Below, piece after piece: positions 1 through 11,934 of a stretch of DNA of 33,322 nucleotides; position 1 is the first letter of the stretch, and each line of letters opens with the position of its first letter. This DNA is from Rhodospirillales bacterium (GTDB taxonomy: Bacteria > Pseudomonadota > Alphaproteobacteria > Rhodospirillales > Magnetospirillaceae): NCBI GenBank assembly GCA_015654615.1, contig JAATGN010000407.1:1-33322 (forward strand), in the 5' to 3' direction. The notes under the pieces were generated by a model. That model saw nothing but the letters and a program-made list of their open reading frames with translations. It had not been told where the DNA came from and searched no databases. Position numbers and translations under genes: made by a program.

Positions 1-198
1 CTTGGCTTCCAGCGCGACGTCGATCTCGTCCAGATAATGCAGAAACAGCACATATTCCGAAGGGATCGTCACATCCGCTTCCAGGGGAAAGACCCAATGT
101 CCATCCCGATGCTGCCGGGCGGCCAGGGCGGCGGTGGAATGGGATATGGCCGCACCGAGCCGCTCGGCGAGCAGCGCGGTCTTTACGTCGGCATTCAC
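1..198 (-). CDS. shc: Squalene-hopene cyclase, N-terminal part only (runs off left edge)
   Basis: Reverse-strand translation from GTG at 198: MNADVKTALLAERLGAAISHSTAALAARQHRDGHWVFPLEADVTIPSEYVLFLHYLDEIDVALEAK. The DGHWVF.LEAD.TIP.EY..FLHYLDEID block is typical of SHC N-termini. Missed in the ORF track because it is truncated. Confidence 0.85.
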   Translation of the reverse strand, partial: MNADVKTALLAERLGAAISHSTAALAARQHRDGHWVFPLEADVTIPSEYVLFLHYLDEIDVALEAK

Positions 199-476
199 GT
201 CGCCGCCCCCGGGAGATGGCTCGCCGCCGGCTCGAAAGTGTCCGATCCCGAACGCATGCGGATGAACGAGGGGGACCGCATGGTCGGGATCGGACGGCCG
301 ACCCCGGCCGCGGCGGGTGGGACGCCGCCGGATCGGGATCGGACAACGCCTCGTGATGGGGGCCACGGGACGTCATCGCGGTTTTCGAAAACGGCCGGTC
401 CATGCGATGCCTGGCGCGATGCCGAAGAGAACCGGACCGGGAATTCAGCGGAAGGACCGACATGCCATCTCATTCT

Positions 477-499
477 AAACGATACCGGACTGTTTCGTT
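477..499 (-). promoter_or_regulatory. Putative TetR-type operator, site A (shc promoter)
   Basis: aaacgataccggactgtttcgtt; 21/23 identical to site B (3816-3838) and 20/23 to site C (10058-10080); imperfect 19-bp palindrome. Confidence 0.6.
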
Positions 500-635
500 A
501 TAGCGCGTACCATAGCATTATGCGATCATGCGACACAACGTGAATGACAAAAACCTTATTTCGATTATAAGGAATTATCAAAGTCGTTGTGATAACGCGA
601 GTTAGCCACCCTTTGCCAAGATTGGATAGCTGACC

Positions 636-1430
636 ATGATGCAGTCCGCCGCCTCCCGCACCCGGTTGGATGGTCCTTTGACGTCCGATGCCCTGACGCA
701 TTTCGATCGCACCGGTTGGGTGCCGGTTCCGGGGTTCTTCAGCGCCGCCGAGATCTCCGAAATCTCCGGCTGGATCGACGAACTGCTGGCCAGGCCGGAA
801 GTTCCGGGAACCCACTGGGTCTATCATCAGCCGAGCCTGCTCGACCCTGGCCGCCGGCTGGTGCAGCGGATCGAGAATTTCTGCCCTCACCATGCCGGCC
901 TGGATACCCTGGCCCGCCGGTCGCGCCTGCATCGGGCCACCGAACAGGTCCTGGACGGACCGGTTTTCCTCTTCAAGGAAAAGATCAATTTCAAGGAGCC
1001 GGGCGGCGCCGGCTTCGAGTTGCATCAGGACCAGCAGGCCGGATGGTCCCGCTATGCTCCCCTGTTCGTCACCGTCATGGTCTGCATCGATCCGGCGACG
1101 ATCGAAAACGGCTGCCTGGAAATGGCGGACGGACTGCCCCGCCTCGACCGCCTGATCGCCGACGAATGGCGGCCGGTCAACGATACCGAAGCCGCCGAAT
1201 TCGCCATGTCGCCCATTCCGACGCAGCCGGGCGACGTGGCGTTCTTCGACAGCTTCATCCCCCATGCGTCGAAGGCCAATCTGTCCGCCGACCAGCGGCG
1301 CCTGCTGTTCTTCACCTACAACAACCAGATCCATGGGGATCGGCGGGACCATTACCATACCGACAAGCGCGCCAGCTTTCCGCCCGATATCGAACGGGCT
1401 TCGGGGGCGGAATACAAATTCAGGGTCTGA
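636..1430 (+). CDS. Phytanoyl-CoA dioxygenase (PhyH) family Fe(II)/2-oxoglutarate dioxygenase
   Basis: HxD motif (ELHQDQQAGW) and distal His (FFDSFIPHAS), ENGCLEMADG, C-terminal PPDIER. Confidence 0.85.
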   Translation: MMQSAASRTRLDGPLTSDALTHFDRTGWVPVPGFFSAAEISEISGWIDELLARPEVPGTHWVYHQPSLLDPGRRLVQRIENFCPHHAGLDTLARRSRLHRATEQVLDGPVFLFKEKINFKEPGGAGFELHQDQQAGWSRYAPLFVTVMVCIDPATIENGCLEMADGLPRLDRLIADEWRPVNDTEAAEFAMSPIPTQPGDVAFFDSFIPHASKANLSADQRRLLFFTYNNQIHGDRRDHYHTDKRASFPPDIERASGAEYKFRV

Positions 1431-1464
1431 TCTCGACCGATCACGGAACAGGGGGAATTCAACG

Positions 1465-2037
1465 ATGCGAGCGATCGGCTCATTCCTTGCCACTATCGCC
1501 GTTCCGATTGCGATATGTTCAAGCCTTCCGCCTCATCGCGCCATGGCCGGCGAATTTCTCGATGAGATGAAGGTCGGTGTCCTCAATCACGACATCGCCT
1601 TTCTCGGCCACCATAAGGAAAACGGCGTCGACGTCAATCTCGAGGCCCTGCTGGCCTCCCCCGGCTTTCTCGCCATCATCGGAGCGCCGCGGCCGGATCT
1701 CGGGGTCATGGTCAACAGCGCCGGGAAAACCGACCAGGTCTATGGCGGGCTGACCTGGACGGTCGGCTTCGCCGGAAATCTTTTCGTTCCCGACGACGGT
1801 CTTTTTCTCAGCGGCAGCCTGGGCGGTGCCGGAAACGACGGAAAGCTGGACGGCACTTGGCGGAACCACAAGATTCTGGGGTCCAACCTGCTTTTTCGGG
1901 AAAGCGCCGAGTTCGGTTATCGCTTCCGATCGTCTTACAGCCTGTCGCTGATCGTCGACCACAGCTCCGATGGCGGGCTTTCCGATCACAACCAAGGGTT
2001 GACCAATGCCGGCGCCCGCCTCGGCATAATGTTCTAG
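1465..2037 (+). CDS. Outer-membrane acyloxyacyl hydrolase / lipid A 3-O-deacylase (PagL-like)
   Basis: Signal peptide, then KVGVLNHDIAFLGHHKENGVDVNLEALL and C-terminal DHSSDGGLSDHNQGLTNAGARLGIMF (H-x-S motif, terminal Phe). ATG at 1465 is internal to the listed 1264-2037 ORF. Confidence 0.75.
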   Translation: MRAIGSFLATIAVPIAICSSLPPHRAMAGEFLDEMKVGVLNHDIAFLGHHKENGVDVNLEALLASPGFLAIIGAPRPDLGVMVNSAGKTDQVYGGLTWTVGFAGNLFVPDDGLFLSGSLGGAGNDGKLDGTWRNHKILGSNLLFRESAEFGYRFRSSYSLSLIVDHSSDGGLSDHNQGLTNAGARLGIMF

Positions 2038-2192
2038 AGCGCGATGCCTTAAATCGGCATCACGCTCTGGCTTTTCTTGATGTCCCTCGCCGGGCGCGCG
2101 CCTCCGCGCGCTTGGCCGCGGCCTCAATGGCCGCTGGAGCGCGATGACGTGAGATCGAACCAGACTTGGTTCGATCTCACGTCATCGCGCTC
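2036..2192. repeat. Palindromic intergenic element, copy 1 (hairpin, core, 25-bp-stem hairpin)
   Basis: 2036-2137 matches the reverse complement of 13091-13192 at 101/102 nt; arms 2137-2161 and 2168-2192 are a perfect 25-bp inverted repeat with loop agactt. Confidence 0.93.
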
Positions 2193-2265
2193 TCATTTAT
2201 TGAAAAGAGTCGGAGGCTTCGACCATCGTGGCGTGGGCGACCCGAGGCTTGTGAAATGATTCCAG

Positions 2266-2291
2266 CGGCACCGGCGTCCCCGCCGGTGCCG
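2266..2291. repeat. GGCACCGGCGTCCC-type repeat, palindromic
   Basis: cggcaccggc-gtcccc-gccggtgccg; preceded by gcttgtgaaatgattccag, shared with about 20990-21010. Confidence 0.8.
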
Positions 2292-2396
2292 CGCTGAGTT
2301 CTTCCCTTTATTTCACATACGCTCCTGCCCACCGTCTCGGCAGGTAAGGCGGGCGCGGAGGCCCGCCCCACTGGGGCTAATATCCAAAGAGGCTAA

Positions 2397-3029
2397 CTAA
2401 CCGGCCGCCCGCAGCTGATCGAGCTTGGTGCGCATGGCGGACAGCAGACCGTCCATCCGGCCGTCGTTGGCCTGCATGGCGCCGACATAGTCGGAACGAA
2501 GGGTAATGGCCATGCTGACGCCCTCTGCGACGATGTCGACGACGCGGAAGGTGCCGTCGTCCTCCTGGCGAAGACGCCATTGCACCCGGTTCGGCGGCCC
2601 CCCTTGCGGCTTTACGATGCGCGAATCGACCAACCAGTTGCGGTCCCCCTCCTTGGCGGCGCCGGAGGTTTCCAGCCGCTCGCCATTGTAGTCCCGAAAC
2701 CGCTTGGCCCAAGTGAGGACGGTGATGTCCTCGAACAGCGAGAGGAATTTGTGCTGCTGCTCGACCGTGGCGATACGCCAATAGCGCGACAGCACGAAAC
2801 GGCCGATCTCGGGAATATCGAAGGCCGAGACGAAGAGCGCGCGGAACCGATCGTCGCGCTCGCTCTGCGACAACTGCTTGTCGGCCACCGCCGTAATGGC
2901 GCGTTGGGCCAAGGCCTCGATGAAACGCTGGGCATCGTCCGGACTCTGGGCACGGACCGTGCCAGGCAGCGCGGCCATCAGAAGAACGGCGAAAATCGCC
3001 TGCAGAAAAGTGCGACGAATCATCATCAT
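2397..3029 (-). CDS. MlaC/HpnM-like periplasmic lipid-binding protein (Tol-Pal/ABC toluene-tolerance family)
   Basis: Signal peptide MMMIRRTFLQAIFAVLLMAALPGTVRAQ; FxxLFxxxLxxTWAKRFRDYNGERL; directly follows mlaA. Confidence 0.82.
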   Translation of the reverse strand: MMMIRRTFLQAIFAVLLMAALPGTVRAQSPDDAQRFIEALAQRAITAVADKQLSQSERDDRFRALFVSAFDIPEIGRFVLSRYWRIATVEQQHKFLSLFEDITVLTWAKRFRDYNGERLETSGAAKEGDRNWLVDSRIVKPQGGPPNRVQWRLRQEDDGTFRVVDIVAEGVSMAITLRSDYVGAMQANDGRMDGLLSAMRTKLDQLRAAG

Positions 3030-3030
3030 A

Positions 3031-3810
3031 TCACGGACGCTCCGATTTTCCGGTCCCATTGATTTGCACATTGCGACGCTGTCTGTAAAGGCTCCGCATG
3101 GTGGAATAAAAATCGAGCGACGTCCGCTTCATATCGTCGAGGGCGTCGAGATAAGCCTCGCGCCGGGAAATCGCCGTCACGCCGAGGCGGGTCCAGGAAA
3201 CCCAATCCATGCTGTTGTTCTGCAGATAGCGGTCGAGCGGATCGGCATAGGATTCGATGCCCAAACCGACGGCGTCCCGCGGGTTCGAGGGACCGAACAG
3301 CGGCAACACCAGATAGGGTCCCTCGCCGATTCCCCAAATTCCCAGGGTTTGGCCCAAATCGCTTTGATGGCCGGGAATGCCGAGCGGATCCGCCACATCC
3401 ATCAGGCCCAGCACGCCGAAGCTGGTGTTCAGCGCAAAACGCTCGATGGTGACGCCGGCCAGCGTGAAATTGCCCTGCAGCAGATCGTTTGCCAGATAGA
3501 TCGGCGACTTCAGATTGTCGAGGAAATCGGCGATGCGGGCGCGGCCGAAAGGCGGCATCGCGGCACGATAGCCTTCGGCGACCGGCCGCAGCAGATAGGT
3601 ATCGGCGCCTTCGTTGAAGGCGAAGATGGCGCGGTTGGCCGGCTCGAAGGGATCATTGATCTGCTCGAACTCGGCCCGGGCCTCCGGATCGTCGTCCGGA
3701 GGCGGCGTCGCGCAACCGGCAAGCCCGGCGGCGGCGATGGCGAGCAGAACGCGCGCGGTACGCCGAATCGAAGTTCGCTTCGCTCTCGAATGCCCCAATC
3801 GCTGCCCCAT
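3031..3810 (-). CDS. mlaA: MlaA/VacJ family outer-membrane lipoprotein
   Basis: Lipobox LAGC; NDPFEPANRAIFAFNEGADTYLLRPVAEGYR; GIGEGPYLVLPLFGPSNPRDAVG. Confidence 0.94.
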   Translation of the reverse strand: MGQRLGHSRAKRTSIRRTARVLLAIAAAGLAGCATPPPDDDPEARAEFEQINDPFEPANRAIFAFNEGADTYLLRPVAEGYRAAMPPFGRARIADFLDNLKSPIYLANDLLQGNFTLAGVTIERFALNTSFGVLGLMDVADPLGIPGHQSDLGQTLGIWGIGEGPYLVLPLFGPSNPRDAVGLGIESYADPLDRYLQNNSMDWVSWTRLGVTAISRREAYLDALDDMKRTSLDFYSTMRSLYRQRRNVQINGTGKSERP

Positions 3811-3815
3811 TTTCT

Positions 3816-3838
3816 AAACGGTACCGAACTGTTTCGTT
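3816..3838 (-). promoter_or_regulatory. Putative TetR-type operator, site B (mlaA promoter)
   Basis: aaacggtaccgaactgtttcgtt; similarity with site A continues for about 70 bp including -10/-35-like boxes. Confidence 0.6.
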
Positions 3839-3997
3839 CGTGACCCACCCTAGCATCTTGTGATGGCCGCAGACAATGTGAATGAACATCGTTCCCCGAT
3901 CCGAAGGCCCGCGGCGGCGTCCCGGGGTTCACGCGGACTTTATTGCCGCTTGAACGAGCCCCCTTCCCCGCGTCGACATCCGCCGCTCACCCCGAAT

Positions 3998-5524
3998 TCA
4001 AGGGGCTTCGCCGGTATGGGGTTCCATCCCGGCTCGGAGACCGCCGGCGTCGACGGCCGGCGCCCCATCGCGCCCCTGCACCGTGCGTTCGCTCCACCCT
4101 CCGCCCAGGGCCTTGTACAGGGTCACCAGATTGGACAGGCGCGACAGGCGGGTCACGATCAGGGTCTGCTGCGCGCTGTAAAGGGTCCGCTGGGCGTCGA
4201 GGGTATTGAGATAACCCTCGATGCCGTTGCGGAACCGCATGTCGGAAAGCCGGTAGCGCACGTCCGAGGCTTCGACCAGGGCGCCCTGCGCCCGCAGCTG
4301 ATCGTCGAGCGTTCCCCGGGCGGCAAGCGCGTCGGCGACCTCGCGGAAGGCCGTCTGAATGGCCTTTTCATAACGCGCCACCTCGATGTTCTTCGTCACC
4401 TTGGCATAGTCGAGGCTGGCCTCGAGCCGTCCCCCTTCGAAGATCGGCACCACGATGTTGGGGGCCAAGGTCCATGTCCGCGACGCGCCCTGGAACAGTT
4501 CGGAAAGGCCGGTGCTGGCGGTGCCGCCGCTGGCCGTCAAGGTGATGGTCGGGAAAAAAGCGGCGCGGGCCGCCCCGATATCGGCGTTGGCCGCCTTCAG
4601 GCTATGTTCGGCCGACCGGATGTCGGGACGCCGTTCCAGCAACGCCGAAGGCACGCCGGCCGGCAGATCGGCCAGCGGAATCCCTTTCGCATCGAGTCCG
4701 TGCCCCTCGGCCAGATCGGCCTCCAGCCCGGCGGGAAGCGCCTGTCCGACGAGCAGCACCAGGGCATTGCGATCCTGGGCGACCTGCCGGGTGTACTGGG
4801 CGAGGTTCACCTCGGCGGTCCGCACCGAGGTTTCCGCCTGCCGCAGATCAAGCTCGGTGGCCACGCCCTGACCGCTGTTCAGCTTGATGAGATCATAGGA
4901 CTGCCGCTGGCTTTTCAGGGTGTCCTGGGTCAGCCGCAGCAGGTCCTGGTCGCCCTGCAGCGTGAGATAGGCATTGGCCACCTCGGCGACCAGCGCGATC
5001 TGGACACTGGTGCGGGTCTCTTCCTGGGCGAAATATTGTTCGAGGACCTCCTCCTTCAAGCTGCGGACGCGGCCGAACAGATCCAGTTCGTAGGCGGTGA
5101 AGCCGACGCCGACGCTGTATTGGCGTTCGATCATCGGCGCGCCGGTGGTCGAGAGCCGCGCCGGCAGCCGTTCGTTCAGGCCGCTGCCGGTCGCGTCGAT
5201 CGAGGGAAAAAGATCGGCCCGCTGGATCTGGTATTGGGCGCGGGCGGCCTCGACGTTCAAGGCCGCGACCCGCAGATCCCGATTGTTGGACAGGGCGAGC
5301 TCGATCAGGCCTTGCAAGCGCTGGTCGGTGAAGAAATCGCGCCAGCCGATGTCGGCCGCCGCCGGCCGGCCGGTTTGATCGCCCGCCTCCGGCCCGTAAG
5401 CCGGACCGGTCGGCCAGGCCGCCGCGGTCGGCGCCGCCGGCCGGTCGTAGAACGGGATCAGCGAACAGCCGGCGAGGAGCACGGCGCTCGCCGCCAGCGA
5501 AAGAATGCGTTTCGTCATCATCAT
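3998..5524 (-). CDS. RND efflux outer-membrane factor lipoprotein (NodT/OprM family)
   Basis: Lipobox LLAGCSLIP; YELDLFGRVRSLKE; GVPSALLERRPDIRSAEHSLKAANADIGAARAAFFP. Start ATG at 5524 is internal to the long listed ORF; overlaps the pump stop (taATG). Confidence 0.95.
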   Translation of the reverse strand: MMMTKRILSLAASAVLLAGCSLIPFYDRPAAPTAAAWPTGPAYGPEAGDQTGRPAAADIGWRDFFTDQRLQGLIELALSNNRDLRVAALNVEAARAQYQIQRADLFPSIDATGSGLNERLPARLSTTGAPMIERQYSVGVGFTAYELDLFGRVRSLKEEVLEQYFAQEETRTSVQIALVAEVANAYLTLQGDQDLLRLTQDTLKSQRQSYDLIKLNSGQGVATELDLRQAETSVRTAEVNLAQYTRQVAQDRNALVLLVGQALPAGLEADLAEGHGLDAKGIPLADLPAGVPSALLERRPDIRSAEHSLKAANADIGAARAAFFPTITLTASGGTASTGLSELFQGASRTWTLAPNIVVPIFEGGRLEASLDYAKVTKNIEVARYEKAIQTAFREVADALAARGTLDDQLRAQGALVEASDVRYRLSDMRFRNGIEGYLNTLDAQRTLYSAQQTLIVTRLSRLSNLVTLYKALGGGWSERTVQGRDGAPAVDAGGLRAGMEPHTGEAP

Positions 5525-8500
5525 TATTTCTCGCTCGGAGCGGCGTCTGCCGGCTCGGATGTCGCCTCGTCGATCAGTCGCGGCTTGACCCGGAACAGGC
5601 GAAGTATGACGACGAAGAACAGGGGAACCAGGACGATGGCCAGGAAGGTCGCGGTCAGCATGCCGCCGATCACTCCGGTGCCGATGGCGTTCTGGGCCCC
5701 CGAACCGGCCCCGGAGGCGATCGCCAGCGGCAGCACGCCCAGGATGAAGGCCAGCGACGTCATCAGAATCGGCCGCAGGCGCTGACGGGACGCATGGATG
5801 GCGGCCTCCGCCAGATCCGTGCCGTGATCGAAATAGTCCTTGGCGAATTCGACGATCAGAATGGCGTTCTTCGCCGCCAAACCGACGGTGGTCAACAGGC
5901 CCACCTGGAAATAGACGTCGTTGGACAAGCCGCGCAGCCAGGTCGCGCCGATCGTGCCGACCACGCCGAGCGGCACCACCATCATCACCGCCACCGGAAT
6001 CGACCAGCTCTCGTAAAGGGCGGCGAGGCTGAGGAAGACGACGATCAGCGAAATCGCGTAGAGAGCCGGGGCCTGCGCGCCGGCCAGCCGTTCTTCGTAG
6101 GACAGACCCGTCCATTCGAATCCGACGCCCGGCGGCAGCTTGGCCGTCAGGGTCTCGACCGTGGCCATCGCGTCGCCGGTGCTTTGTCCGGGCGCCGCCT
6201 GCCCCAGCACTTCGACGGAGGGAACGCCGTTGTAGCGTTCGAGCTTCTGCGGTCCGGTCGCCCATTCCGCCGAGGAAAAGGCGGAGAAGGGAACCATTCC
6301 GCCGCCGTGGTTGCGAACATACCACTTGTTCAAATCGTCGGGCATCATCCGCGACGGGGCGTCTCCCTGGACGAACACCCTTTTTACGCGGCCCCGGTTG
6401 ATGAAATCGTTCACATAGGTCGATCCCCAGGCGGTCGACAGGGTATCGTTGATGTCGGCGATCGACAAACCCAGGGCGCTGGCCTTCTCCCGATCGATGA
6501 GAAGCCGATATTGCGGGGCGTCCTCCAGGCCGTTCGGCCGAACCGCCGTCAGGACCGGCGATTGTGCGGCCAGGCCCAGGAACTGATTGCGCGCCGCCAT
6601 CAATTTGTCGTGCCCGATGCCGGCGCGATCCTGAAGTTCCAGATCGAAGCCGTTGGCGTTGCCGAGTTCCAGCACCGCCGGCGGGGCGAAGGCGAAGACC
6701 ATGGCGTCCTTGGTCACGGCGAAATGGCGCATCACCCGGGAGGCAAGAGCCTGGACCTTGCGCTCCGGCGCCGAGCGCAGGCTCCAGTCCTTGAGCTTGA
6801 CGAAGGCCAGGCCGGCATTCTGGTCGCGGCCGTTGAAGCCGAAGCCGCTCACCGTGAAGGCCGACTCGACCGAGTCCTTCTCGTCCCCGAGCAGATATTT
6901 CTGCACCTGTTCGAGCACGGCGTCCGTCCGCACGCTGGTGGCTCCCGGCGGGGTCTGCACCTGGACGAACATGATCCCCTGGTCTTCCTCCGGCAGGAAG
7001 GCGCTGGGCAATCGCACGAACAGCACCCCCATGACGACGACCAACGCGCCGTAAATGAACAGAAAGCGGATCGGGCGGACGAGAACGCCACCCACGCTGG
7101 CGACGTAGCCGCGGTTGCCGCGGTCGAAATTCCGGTTGAACCAGCCGAAGAGGCCGCGCTTATCGACGTGCTCGCCCTTGGAAACCGGCTTCAGCATGGT
7201 GGCGCAGAGGGCCGGAGTCAGGATCAGGGCGACCAGCACCGACAACGCCATGGCCGACACCATGGTGATGGAGAACTGCCGGTAGATCACCCCGGTCGAG
7301 CCGCCGAAAAAGGCCATCGGCAGAAAGACCGCCGCCAGCACCAGGGCGATACCGACCAGGGCGCCGGTGATCTGCTGCATCGACTTCTTCGTCGCCTCCT
7401 TGGGCGACAGCCCCTCCTCGTTCATCACCCGCTCGACGTTCTCGACCACCACGATGGCGTCGTCGACGAGAAGACCGATTGCCAGAACCATGGCGAACAT
7501 GGTCAGCGTATTGATCGAGTAACCGGCGGCGGACAGGGCGGCGAAGGTCCCCAGGAGCACCACCGGAACCGCGATGGTCGGGATCAGCGTCGCCCGGAAG
7601 TTTTGCAGGAAAAGATACATGACGAGGAAGACCAGGATGATGGCCTCCCCCAGGGTCTTGACCACCTCCTCGATCGAAAGGCGCACGAAAGGCGTCGTAT
7701 CATAGGGATAAACGACTTCGAGACCCGGCGGAAAGAACGGTTTCAGCCCGTCGATGGTCGCCTTCACGGCCTTGACCGCATCGAGCGCGTTCGCCCCGGT
7801 GGCCAATTTCACCGCCAGACCGGCGGCCGGCCGACCATTGTACTGCGTCTCGATGGCGTAGCTCTCGCCGCCCAATTCGCTCCGTCCGACGTCATGCAGT
7901 TGGACCTGCGAACCGTCGGGATTGACCTTCAGCAGGATATTGCCGAACTGCTCGGGCGTCTGCAGGCGCGACGGCCCGATGATGGTGGCGGTCAACTGCT
8001 GTCCGGCACTGGCCGGACGGTTGCCGAGCTGACCGGAGGAAACCTGGACGTTCTGCGCCTGGATGGCCGAAATGATGTCGTCGGTCACCAATCCGTAGTT
8101 GTTCAGTTTTGCCGGATCGAGCCAGATCCGCATCGCATATTGCGAGCCGAACAGGGTGAAATCGCCGACGCCGGCCGTACGGCTGATCGGATCTTGAATG
8201 TTCGAGGCGACATAATCGGCCAGATCGTAGCGATTCATGCTGCCGTCGGTCGAGACGAGACCCACGATGATCAGGTAATTCTTCGTCGCCTTCGCGACCC
8301 GCATGCCCTGCTGCTGGACCTCCTGCGGCAGAAGCGGCGTCGCCAGTTGCAGCTTGTTCTGCACCTGGACCTGGGCGATGTCGGGATTGGTGCCCTGCTG
8401 GAAGGTCAGGTCGATTTCCATGCTGCCGTCGGAATTGCCCTGCGACGCCAGATATTCCAGGCCGTCGATGCCGTTCATCTGCTGTTCGATGACCTGGACG

Positions 8501-8682
8501 ACGGTATCCTGCACGGTCTGCGCCGAGGCGCCGGGATAGTTGACGGTTATGGCGATCTGCGGCGGCGCGATGCTCGGATACTGCGAAATCGGCAGGGTAT
8601 CGATCGCCAGGGCGCCGGCCAGCATCAGGACGAGCGCGATGACCCAGGCGAAAACCGGCCGCTCGATAAAAAACTTGGACAT
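5524..8682 (-). CDS. RND multidrug efflux permease, AcrB/HAE1 family
   Basis: 1052 aa; [63 protein letters not shown]. Confidence 0.97.
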
Positions 8683-8693
8683 GAAGGGTTCCT

Positions 8694-9878
8694 TTACTGC
8701 GCCGACGGAGCCGGGCCCAACGGCGCCGGTGCCACATTCCCGGCAGCGACGGCGCGCACGGGAGCACCGGGCCGCACCTTCTGCAGGCCCTCCACGATCA
8801 CGCGGTCATTGGCCTTGAGACCATCGGTCGCCAGCCATTTGTCGCCGATGGCGCGATCGACCGTCACCGGGCGCAGTTCGACCTTGTCGTCGGCTCCGAT
8901 CACCAGCACCGTCGCCTCGCCGCGCTGGTTGCGGGTCACCCCCTGCTGGGGCACGAGAATCGCCTGGTCATCGACGCCTTCTTCGATGCGGGCGTGGACG
9001 AACATGCCCGGCAGCAGAAGCCGCTTCGGATTGGGGAATACCGCCCGCAAGGTGACGGAGCCGGTCCCCGGATCCACCGTCACTTCGGAAAACAGCAGTT
9101 TGCCCGCTTCGGAATATTCGCTGCCGTCCTCCAGAAGGAGATGCGCCACCGCCTGCCCCTCGCCGGCCTTCTGCAGACGGCCGTCGGCCAGTTCGCGCTG
9201 CAGGCGCAGCATCTCGGCGCTGGACTGGGTGACGTCGACATAGATCGGATCGAGTTCCTGGACCGTGGCCAGGGAGGCCGCCTGTCCGGTGGTGACGAGG
9301 GCTCCCTCGGTTACCGACGAACGGCCGATGCGGCCGGAGATCGGCGAAAGGACCTTGGTGTAGACGAGGTTGATGCGCGCCGTTTCCACCGCCGCCTTGG
9401 CCGAAGCGACATCGGCGTCGGCCTGCTCGGCCGCCGCCACCGCATTGTCGTAATCCTGCTTGCTCACCGCATTGGCGGCGACCAGCGGCCGATAGCGCCC
9501 GGCCAGCAGATTGCTGCTTTTTCGCGTCGCCTCGGCCCGCGCCAGCGATGCCCGGGCGCTGTCATAGGAAGCCTGATAGGTCGCGGGGTCGATCTGATAA
9601 AGCTGCTGTCCGGCCTTCACTTCGCTGCCTTCGGTGAACAACCGCTTGAGAAGCACGCCCCCGACCTGCGGACGGACGTCGGCGACGCGATAGGGCGTGG
9701 TCCGGCCCGGCAGTTCCGTCAGGATCGCGACGCGCTGCGGCGCCAAGGTGACCACGCCGACCTCCGTCGGGGCAGCCGGAGCGGCCGCCTTCCCATTGTG
9801 CTCCGCCTGGTCGCACCCCAGCAGTGCCAAGACGACGATCGACGACCATATCCAAGAGCGAAAATGCAGATGATTCAT
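8694..9878 (-). CDS. RND efflux periplasmic adaptor (AcrA family lipoprotein)
   Basis: Start MNHLHF at 9878; lipobox [40 protein letters not shown]. Confidence 0.95.
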
Positions 9879-10057
9879 AGACCTATCCTGATGATCGGTA
9901 ACTGATGGCCGAACGCGCGATTCATCCAGAGAATCATTATCCCGTCCGGTAGACGTCCCCTCTGCCGGATAAACAATAATCCAAATATACTTTCCAAGGA
10001 CAATCATTTACCGGTGCGTGACGGTGGCGAAACTTGTCATATGACGGAAACATAAAA

Positions 10058-10080
10058 GAACGATACCGTACTGTTTCGAT
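10058..10080 (-). promoter_or_regulatory. Putative TetR-type operator, site C (RND operon promoter)
   Basis: gaacgataccgtactgtttcgat; on the minus strand lies just downstream of a perfect TTGACA -35 box (10106-10101). Confidence 0.65.
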
Positions 10081-10382
10081 TTTTGCTATCTTTGCCGGCA
10101 TGTCAAGGTCATTTCCCCGAGAGCCCTCCGAAGTCCGCTGTCGGAAGGCCAACCGTCGATAAGCGAAGGGTCATGGTTCAAAACCGGCAGATTGGGTGCA
10201 GATGATTGTTTTTCCTGACACCTTATCCTAATGATGGGTTCTGGAAAATCAGCATCGGACCGCGATGGGACTGCCCCGAAGGAGTCTGATTGAGGGTCGT
10301 CAACCATACCGGCGGACGAGAGATGTTGGTACTGCGTTCCGCACGGGTTTAAAAATTGGCGACGGTTTCGGAAGGGACATTC

Positions 10383-11081
10383 ATGATCGCAGAGCGCATA
10401 CAATGTCGTGGCACGGGAGGACGCCCCCCGGCCTGCGAAATCGAGGGTCGACGGCAACATCTGATCACGGTGGCGACCAGACTTTTCCTGTCCAACGGCT
10501 ACGAAGCCACCAGCCTGGAGAACATCGCCAAGGCCGCCGGTGCGTCCAAGACGACGATCTATCGAAATTTCGGCGACAAGGCCGATCTGTTCCGCATCGT
10601 TCTCAACCGTTTCGTCGAGCCGATCTGGCCGACGCTCAGCGACGTCTGCATCGAGGGCAAATCGCCGAAGGAGGTCCTGGCGGCCTTTGGGAATCTGATG
10701 ATTTCGACGACCATCCTCAATCCCGACGGCATCGCGCTGATGCGCCTGATCTACCGGGAAGCACCGCGGTTTCCCGAACTGGCGCGAATTTTCGCCGAAA
10801 CCGAACAGATCACCGTCGAAGTGGTGGCCAGATATCTGACCCTGGCCATGCATCAGCAATATCTGCGCCCGATCGATCCCGCCTGGGCGGCCAGCCAGTT
10901 TCTGGAACTGATCTGGGGCATCCTGGCGCGCCGCCTGCTGGTCGGAACGATCTCCTTCCCGGACGAGGCCGAACGGCGGCGCGTCGTGGATTCGGCCGTC
11001 GCCCTGTTCCTGACCGGGACCGCGAGAATAGACCAACCACCGACCATGACATCCCACAGCGAGGCGGTTTCCGATGAATGA
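10383..11081 (+). CDS. TetR/AcrR family transcriptional regulator
   Basis: HTH: ATRLFLSNGYEATSLENIAKAAGASKTTIYRNFGDKADLF. ATG 10383 has a ggaaggg SD; the listed 10356 start is less likely. Confidence 0.93.
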   Translation: MIAERIQCRGTGGRPPACEIEGRRQHLITVATRLFLSNGYEATSLENIAKAAGASKTTIYRNFGDKADLFRIVLNRFVEPIWPTLSDVCIEGKSPKEVLAAFGNLMISTTILNPDGIALMRLIYREAPRFPELARIFAETEQITVEVVARYLTLAMHQQYLRPIDPAWAASQFLELIWGILARRLLVGTISFPDEAERRRVVDSAVALFLTGTARIDQPPTMTSHSEAVSDE

Positions 11082-11934
11082 TATGCCGACCAACTGGAAA
11101 AATATTTCGGTCTTTCTCGACGACACGCCGCAAAGCGGGAAAATCGGCGATTATGCCGCCACGCTGGCCCAGCGTTTCGGGGCGCATCTGATCGGCATCC
11201 ACGGCATTGCCGGCATCCCCGGCGAATATGCCGCGGATGCCTTCGCCCGCGGCAGGAAGGCCATCGACAGCATCATCGCCAGGCGACAGGCGGCGGAGGA
11301 GGAACAGGCCCTGGCCGTCGGCCGGCGTTTCGCCGCGCTGCCGGCACAGTACGACATCAGCACCGAGTTCCGGGTGATCTGGAGCGGACGCGGCGACGAG
11401 GAGGCCTTGCTCAATTCGCTCCACTGCGACCTGGTCGTCCTCGGACATCCCAAACCGCACGGCTTGCCGAAGAACTGGACCGCCGAGCGCCTGCTGATCG
11501 CCAGCGGCGTGCCCATTCTCATCGTTCCGGACATCTGGAAAGCCGAAACGATCGGCAACAAGGCGCTGGTCGCCTGGAACGCCAGCCGCGAAGCGCGCCG
11601 GGCCATCGCCGATGCGATGCCGATCCTCCGTTCGGCGCAATCGGTGACGGTCCTGGTCGTCGACCCCGCCAAAGCCCCCGCGAAATATGGCGAAGAACCC
11701 GGTGCCGACATCGCGACCTATCTGTCCCGGCATGGCGTCAGGGTCGAGGTCGAGCAGGTGAAATCGCAGGGAAAGCCGATCGCCGAAATCATCGGCTCCC
11801 AGGCCGTGGCGCAAGGCGCCGACCTCATCGTCATCGGAGCCTACAGCCATGCCCGGTCCTCGGAGATCATTTTCGGAGGCGTCACCCGCGCCCTGCTGAC
11901 CGAGATGCCGATGCCGATCCTGGTCTCGCGATAA
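11074..11934 (+). CDS. Universal stress protein (UspA family, tandem domain)
   Basis: GxxxxxSEII-type ATP-binding tail (VIGAYSHARSSEIIFGGVTRALLTEMPMPILVSR). Confidence 0.88.
   Translation: MNDMPTNWKNISVFLDDTPQSGKIGDYAATLAQRFGAHLIGIHGIAGIPGEYAADAFARGRKAIDSIIARRQAAEEEQALAVGRRFAALPAQYDISTEFRVIWSGRGDEEALLNSLHCDLVVLGHPKPHGLPKNWTAERLLIASGVPILIVPDIWKAETIGNKALVAWNASREARRAIADAMPILRSAQSVTVLVVDPAKAPAKYGEEPGADIATYLSRHGVRVEVEQVKSQGKPIAEIIGSQAVAQGADLIVIGAYSHARSSEIIFGGVTRALLTEMPMPILVSR

Follow-up and report, generated by a model that had tools for sequence, protein, structure and literature searches.

A dyad shared by hopanoid, Mla, efflux and phosphonolipid genes is a candidate operator of one TetR-family regulator in Telmatospirillum

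For repressors of the TetR family, operators that cover the transcription start or the -35 region of a promoter are standard (PMC6790063). In the AcrR/PmeR type the TetR gene is divergent from an adaptor-pump operon, a palindrome lies between the two and autoregulation is probable (PMC6790063; PmeR, PMC12421961), while MtrR and EnvR combine local control of a pump with remote targets (PMC6790063). TetR-linked RND pumps are also represented in rhizobia by the flavonoid-induced FrrA-FreCAB system (PMC4070704), and in S. fredii hopanoid-related genes are inducible by an external signal, under the control of nod box/NodD1 and not of a TetR protein (PMC4990936).

The window analysed here is a stretch of 33,322 nucleotides from a contig of the peat bacterium Telmatospirillum, and its own genome (G000) is a fragmented draft of 5.70 Mb in 466 contigs with an estimated contamination of 7%. 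The locus resembles the AcrR/PmeR type in its divergent TetR gene, intervening palindrome and probable autoregulation, and resembles MtrR and EnvR in that local control of a pump would be combined with remote targets. Around the local site the features are:

3998..6325, minus strand: frame of the RND outer-membrane factor (family match over residues 279-743; PF02321; TIGR01845 over cut-off)
5524..8682, minus strand: AcrB/MexB-type RND pump (PF00873, 1318 bits; TIGR00915 over cut-off)
8694..10007, minus strand: RND periplasmic adaptor (TIGR01730 over cut-off)
10058..10080, unstranded: putative operator C, exact motif, between the divergent RND operon and the TetR gene
10383..11081, plus strand: TetR/AcrR-family regulator, the proposed cognate repressor (PF00440, E 3e-15; PF14246, E 3e-23)
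11074..11934, plus strand: universal stress protein (USP) gene overlapping the end of the TetR gene (PF00582)

The helix-turn-helix of the regulator scores 56 bits against PF00440 (cut-off 24) and its C-terminal ligand-binding domain 82.7 bits against PF14246, TetR_C_7 (cut-off 22), while the NCBIfam AcrR equivalog gives 45.7 bits against a cut-off of 271. With site C between the TetR gene and its divergent target, both in the window and in T. siberiense, the arrangement is that of a Type I (divergent) TetR regulator. Two further sites lie at some distance, among lipid genes:

1..366, minus strand: 5' part of squalene-hopene cyclase (shc), frame to a GTG at 366, cut by the contig start
477..499, minus strand: putative operator A, exact motif, between second-copy shc (minus) and the divergent PhyH gene (plus)
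636..1430, plus strand: PhyH-family dioxygenase (PF05721, E 2e-21), distant from the methylphosphonate hydroxylase PhnY
1264..2037, plus strand: frame of a PagL-like lipid A deacylase downstream of PhyH (PF09411, E 5e-10)
2397..3071, minus strand: mlaC-like gene, accessory copy (PF05494, E 4e-35)
3031..3810, minus strand: mlaA, accessory copy (PF04333, E 1e-67)
3816..3838, minus strand: putative operator B, exact motif, directly upstream of mlaA (ATG at 3810)

Cut as it is, shc gives a partial match to TIGR01507 (42-44 bits over the first residues, the HMM match beginning at ~168). MlaA is assigned by PF04333 with 228 bits (cut-off 25); the MlaC-like protein carries the Pfam MlaC domain and lies below the cut-off of both equivalogs, MlaC (47.5 against 195) and HpnM (96.6 against 160.1). 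The PhyH protein, which is below the cut-off of NF052437, has a 72% identical paralogue beside the fourth site described below (L009:375-1190), and site A may also serve the divergent PhyH gene.

A preliminary description of the window had proposed that this TetR protein represses the hopanoid, Mla and efflux genes through one 23-bp palindrome. Its three sites are exact in coordinates and sequence, with 19 of 23 columns invariant, and the TetR gene is indeed divergent from the RND operon. The palindrome too is real, but the notation used for it (AAAC..T.C.G.A..GTTT) is better replaced by AACGAWAC-N6-GTWTCGTT, a 22-bp imperfect dyad in which 16 of 22 positions are symmetric in A and C. Among 20-mers common to the regions upstream of all three units the best one needs no more than 2 mismatches, compared with 6-8 in 40 shuffled sets. 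Whole-genome scans were made with patterns, and matrix scans were confined to selected loci. When up to three mismatches were allowed, the window's own genome returned four exact sites (A-D), none at one or two mismatches and four at three, whereas the reversed pattern gave no match in the same scan even with three. All four exact sites are intergenic and lie at shc, mlaAC, RND/TetR and a phosphonolipid/hpnL locus. The matches at three mismatches (C132, C273, C284 and C430) were too weak and were left out of the set. Further members were sought with the degenerate dyad plus one mismatch, but the extra single-orientation matches were about as numerous as those of the reversed control, so that in this assembly the set is taken to be sites A-D.

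Site D (contig C103, L009:2432) had no part in defining the motif and is conserved in T. siberiense (L022:5206). On its minus-strand side, 460-475 bp from the start, is a nucleotidyltransferase (NTP-transferase)/PhyH pair; on its plus-strand side, 155-215 bp from the start, are genes for a PEP mutase-nucleotidyltransferase fusion, phosphonopyruvate decarboxylase, HpnL (TIGR03476, 290.6 bits, cut-off 195.65) and 2-aminoethylphosphonate (AEP) transaminase. The cluster of T. siberiense includes, between the genes for HpnL and the transaminase, one for a CDP-alcohol phosphatidyltransferase. D may control either of the two directions. The cluster would thus be one for the synthesis of an aminoethylphosphonate lipid, and D, which came from a blind genome scan, looks like a functionally coherent fourth target. 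We note that in both genomes hpnL lies inside the AEP cluster and not in an hpn cluster (L022:8266-9276, L009:5493-6503), which places HpnL, a protein whose role is not established (PMC12583986), in the functional context of 2-aminoethylphosphonate synthesis.

In our judgement it is probable that the dyad is the operator of the TetR protein encoded at 10383-11081, which would repress the units at A, B and C together with its own gene, with D as a fourth operator, until a hydrophobic ligand released it and the units rose together. A TetR dimer, or a pair of dimers, would lie over the transcription start of shc copy 2, the accessory mlaAC and the RND operon, and at site C would also cover the -35 region of the TetR promoter, leading to autorepression. 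The ligand would probably be an RND substrate or an envelope-active compound, and on release the pump, TetR-USP, the spare squalene-hopene cyclase, the spare MlaA/MlaC and the phosphonolipid genes would increase together. The TetR gene, and probably USP along with it, would therefore be a member of the regulon too.

What can be read directly from the DNA is the identity, rarity and intergenic position of the sites, their conservation and their co-occurrence with the TetR gene. Orthologues of TetR occur in all three larger relatives, G001, the isolate T. siberiense 26-4b1 (G003) and the MAG SA7853_bin3 (G004), with 64-68% identity over their length in alignment, and the USP gene is beside TetR in all four genomes. 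The site lies ~200 bp upstream of the orthologue in G003 and G004 and ~30 bp upstream in G001, and the operator plus TTTTTGCTATC forms the main block that all four species keep when this intergenic region is aligned. The recognition helix, GASKTTIYRN, does not vary among the four TetR proteins whose genes adjoin a site. Near-exact intergenic sites were found only in these four among 317 genomes of the order, and in none of those that lack this TetR. Taken together, the adjacent TetR is very probably the cognate regulator of the sites. A paralogous TetR in G001 (C183) has the helix GVSKTTIYHN, and neither a variant nor a matching operator was found upstream of it; its locus (L096) carries TetR-USP-mlaC-RND genes all on one strand. 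G002, listed in the same genus, measures 0.9 Mb at 100% completeness; its mlaAC and RND genes are very diverged and the TetR orthologue is absent. A match in G002 (C28) was rejected with a PWM score of 13, against 36-42.

On one contig of the isolate T. siberiense sites stand at shc copy 2 (A', L021:629-650), at RND/TetR and at the phosphonate locus (D'), so that the isolate repeats three of the links seen in the draft window genome; A, B and D, and there A' and D', would by sequence give the regulator the remote targets of Type III. The anticipated presence of the site at orthologous promoters was thus confirmed for T. siberiense shc and RND. It did not extend to the mlaAC genes of that species, which lie downstream of TetR-USP, nor to most targets in the other two relatives. 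In T. siberiense mlaA and mlaC come after TetR-USP and run in the same direction, apparently in a single operon, so that the TetR promoter would serve them as well; the window has mlaAC at another place, with an operator (B) of its own. The site was looked for and found absent at the RND orthologue of G004 (C98), the phosphonate loci of G004 and G001 and housekeeping mlaAC, which leaves the TetR-adjacent site as the only one conserved across the genus. The wide regulon pattern is seen only in the window genome and T. siberiense and, with most targets not conserved in two of three relatives, the regulon appears young and variable. Other genes have been noted around these sites. In G004 (C49, L024) TetR-USP is followed not by mlaAC but by a propeller-GGDEF protein (Pfam) and a chemotaxis-receptor gene, and the genes after TetR-USP in G001 (C398, L025) look like the same set by sequence. 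A slightly weaker variant site in G004 (C94, L108:4678-7714) precedes genes for PagL, a radical-SAM/B12 protein and a CDP-alcohol phosphatidyltransferase; the second of these has a distant likeness to HpnJ and the third is related to the phosphatidyltransferase of the phosphonate cluster. In T. siberiense a second, unrelated TetR gene (L021:693-1313) ends just upstream of A' and shc copy 2.

These distributions bear on an alternative that we consider unlikely, namely that the TetR protein reads site C only, for its own gene and RND, and that the other three sites are recognised by another TetR-family protein with matching DNA specificity, or are bound only weakly and to no physiological effect. 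It would account for the conservation of just the TetR-adjacent site in all four genomes and for the differences between the A/B and C/D flanks (see below), and the second TetR gene beside T. siberiense shc copy 2 offers a candidate reader. However, that second protein is only 25% identical, and in the window neither A nor B has a counterpart of it alongside; of the 20 core bases of C, 18-20 recur in A, B and D, and intergenic sites are confined to genomes with this TetR.

The promoter-like elements around the sites are:

509..538, minus strand: shc copy 2 pair TTGTGT-18-TATGGT with extended -10 TGCTATGGT, predicted from sequence (on the plus strand, ACCATA 509-514 and ACACAA 533-538)
3847..3876, minus strand: mlaA-mlaC pair TTGTCT-18-TAGGGT, predicted from sequence, its flank common with A (plus strand, ACCCTA 3847-3852 and AGACAA 3871-3876)
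10079..10106, minus strand: RND pair TTGACA-16-AAAAAT, operator C beginning at its -10 (plus strand, ATTTTT 10079-10084 and TGTCAA 10101-10106)
10084..10092, plus strand: extended -10-like TGCTATCTT towards TetR, operator C over its -35 region

The spacings of 18, 18 and 16 bp are as the preliminary description gave them. In three cases, A, B and C as seen from the RND operon, the operator starts level with the -10 or immediately beyond it and covers the transcription start (9-10 bp past the -10 in the case of shc). The RND -35 is TTGACA in T. siberiense and TTGAGC in G004 and is lost in G001, which has no divergent RND gene; TGCTATCTT, just 3' of the operator, is kept in three of four species and partly in the fourth. 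A dyad so placed would let a repressor block these promoters, and the action of the adjacent TetR as their repressor is accordingly a well-supported prediction. The likeness of the A and B flanks with a 1-nt indel, claimed earlier, also held: over 75 bp upstream, with the operator removed, the local alignment score is 15 (0/1000 shuffles). The flanks of C and D are alike to the same degree (local score 15, 0/1000 shuffles) and differ from the A-B flank, and a comparison of A with C showed no similarity (0.84). Two promoter families thus carry one dyad, which suggests that it is the dyad itself that is kept. It is quite improbable that the element belongs to a non-TetR regulator or came about by duplication of a promoter segment, of which A and B would be copies: the ~75 bp common to A and B would fit such a duplication, but C and D share the dyad and not the A/B flank, the dyad alone persists where flanks diverge, and no genome has the element without TetR next to it.

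Functionless chance similarity, for which one could cite exact matches in coding DNA elsewhere (NDTELFR in G274 and G278; NDTPLFR at C4:48460 of T. siberiense), was already strongly disfavoured and is scarcely credible against an expectation of ~4e-5 exact sites in 5.7 Mb, four sites that are all intergenic and their conservation across species. Those matches were rejected: in G274 and G278, which belong to another genus of the order and in which no TetR protein closer than ~30% was found, they lie inside an aldehyde dehydrogenase gene and are thus coding coincidences, and the T. siberiense match is likewise coding sequence. That operator 20-mers occur, exactly or nearly so, in coding DNA (L113, L114, L023:5461) counsels caution in calling regulons from a motif alone.

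If the TetR protein does govern all four sites, the genes it governs are largely second copies. In the window genome as well as in T. siberiense shc is present in two near-identical copies, which agree at 99-100% where they meet, and these junctions are the points at which the contigs break (window 1-366; G000:C116, C185; G003:C33, C68, C75), suggesting that the gene was duplicated or converted recently. Contig ends cut off copy 2 in both genomes, and the housekeeping copy sits with hpnG/hpnH/hpnM. Another mlaA occurs in the window's own genome (G000:C428), and housekeeping mlaAC is without the site both there and in T. siberiense. The presence of a second shc and mlaAC, with housekeeping copies that lack the site, implies that the regulated genes are the spare ones. 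The proposed coupling would therefore concern second copies of shc and mlaAC rather than hopanoid level or outer-membrane lipid asymmetry as such. The accessory mlaA copies form one clade (support 98/99), as do the accessory mlaC copies of G000, G003 and G001 (100/99), apart from housekeeping copies and all in TetR-USP-RND loci, so that mlaC stays tied to the regulator through rearrangements. Hopanoids are known to contribute to a robust envelope and to drug tolerance. The gene set suggests that a single sensor may turn on a coordinated outer-membrane repair set. A more specific reading, which is possible rather than probable, is that of a silent spare outer-membrane kit comprising the second shc, the second MlaA/MlaC, a hydroxylated 2-aminoethylphosphonate lipid with HpnL, and the RND pump, by which a lipophilic toxin would cause outer-membrane lipids to be swapped and efflux to be raised; this lipophilic-stress reading, like the physiological purpose we infer, is drawn only from the identity of the genes.

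The PhlF operator reads CGAAAC-GTACC-GTATCGTT, and we take it to have the same two half-sites as the dyad here and to be read by a similar recognition helix, with a spacer of 5 instead of 6. AefR-like TetR proteins (3cdl AefR, 8ke8 NalC, 6g87) share the TetR_C_7 family with the window TetR at ~30% sequence similarity, the best PDB match reaching only 82.7 bits. Unlike the AcrR/PmeR type, the present system has identical operators at remote lipid genes as well, and its TetR is not the AcrR equivalog; unlike those of MtrR and EnvR, its remote targets are hopanoid, Mla and phosphonolipid genes. An operator common to pump and hopanoid genes, as seen here, is not reported for FrrA-FreCAB or S. fredii, and in the open-access literature we found no local regulator that has been shown to switch efflux and lipid transport along with hopanoid synthesis. 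The mechanism would thus be ordinary for a TetR protein, while the content of the regulon appears to be new. If the proposal is correct, one small-molecule-responsive repressor would provide a genetic handle on the link between hopanoids, efflux and lipid transport in the culturable T. siberiense 26-4b1.
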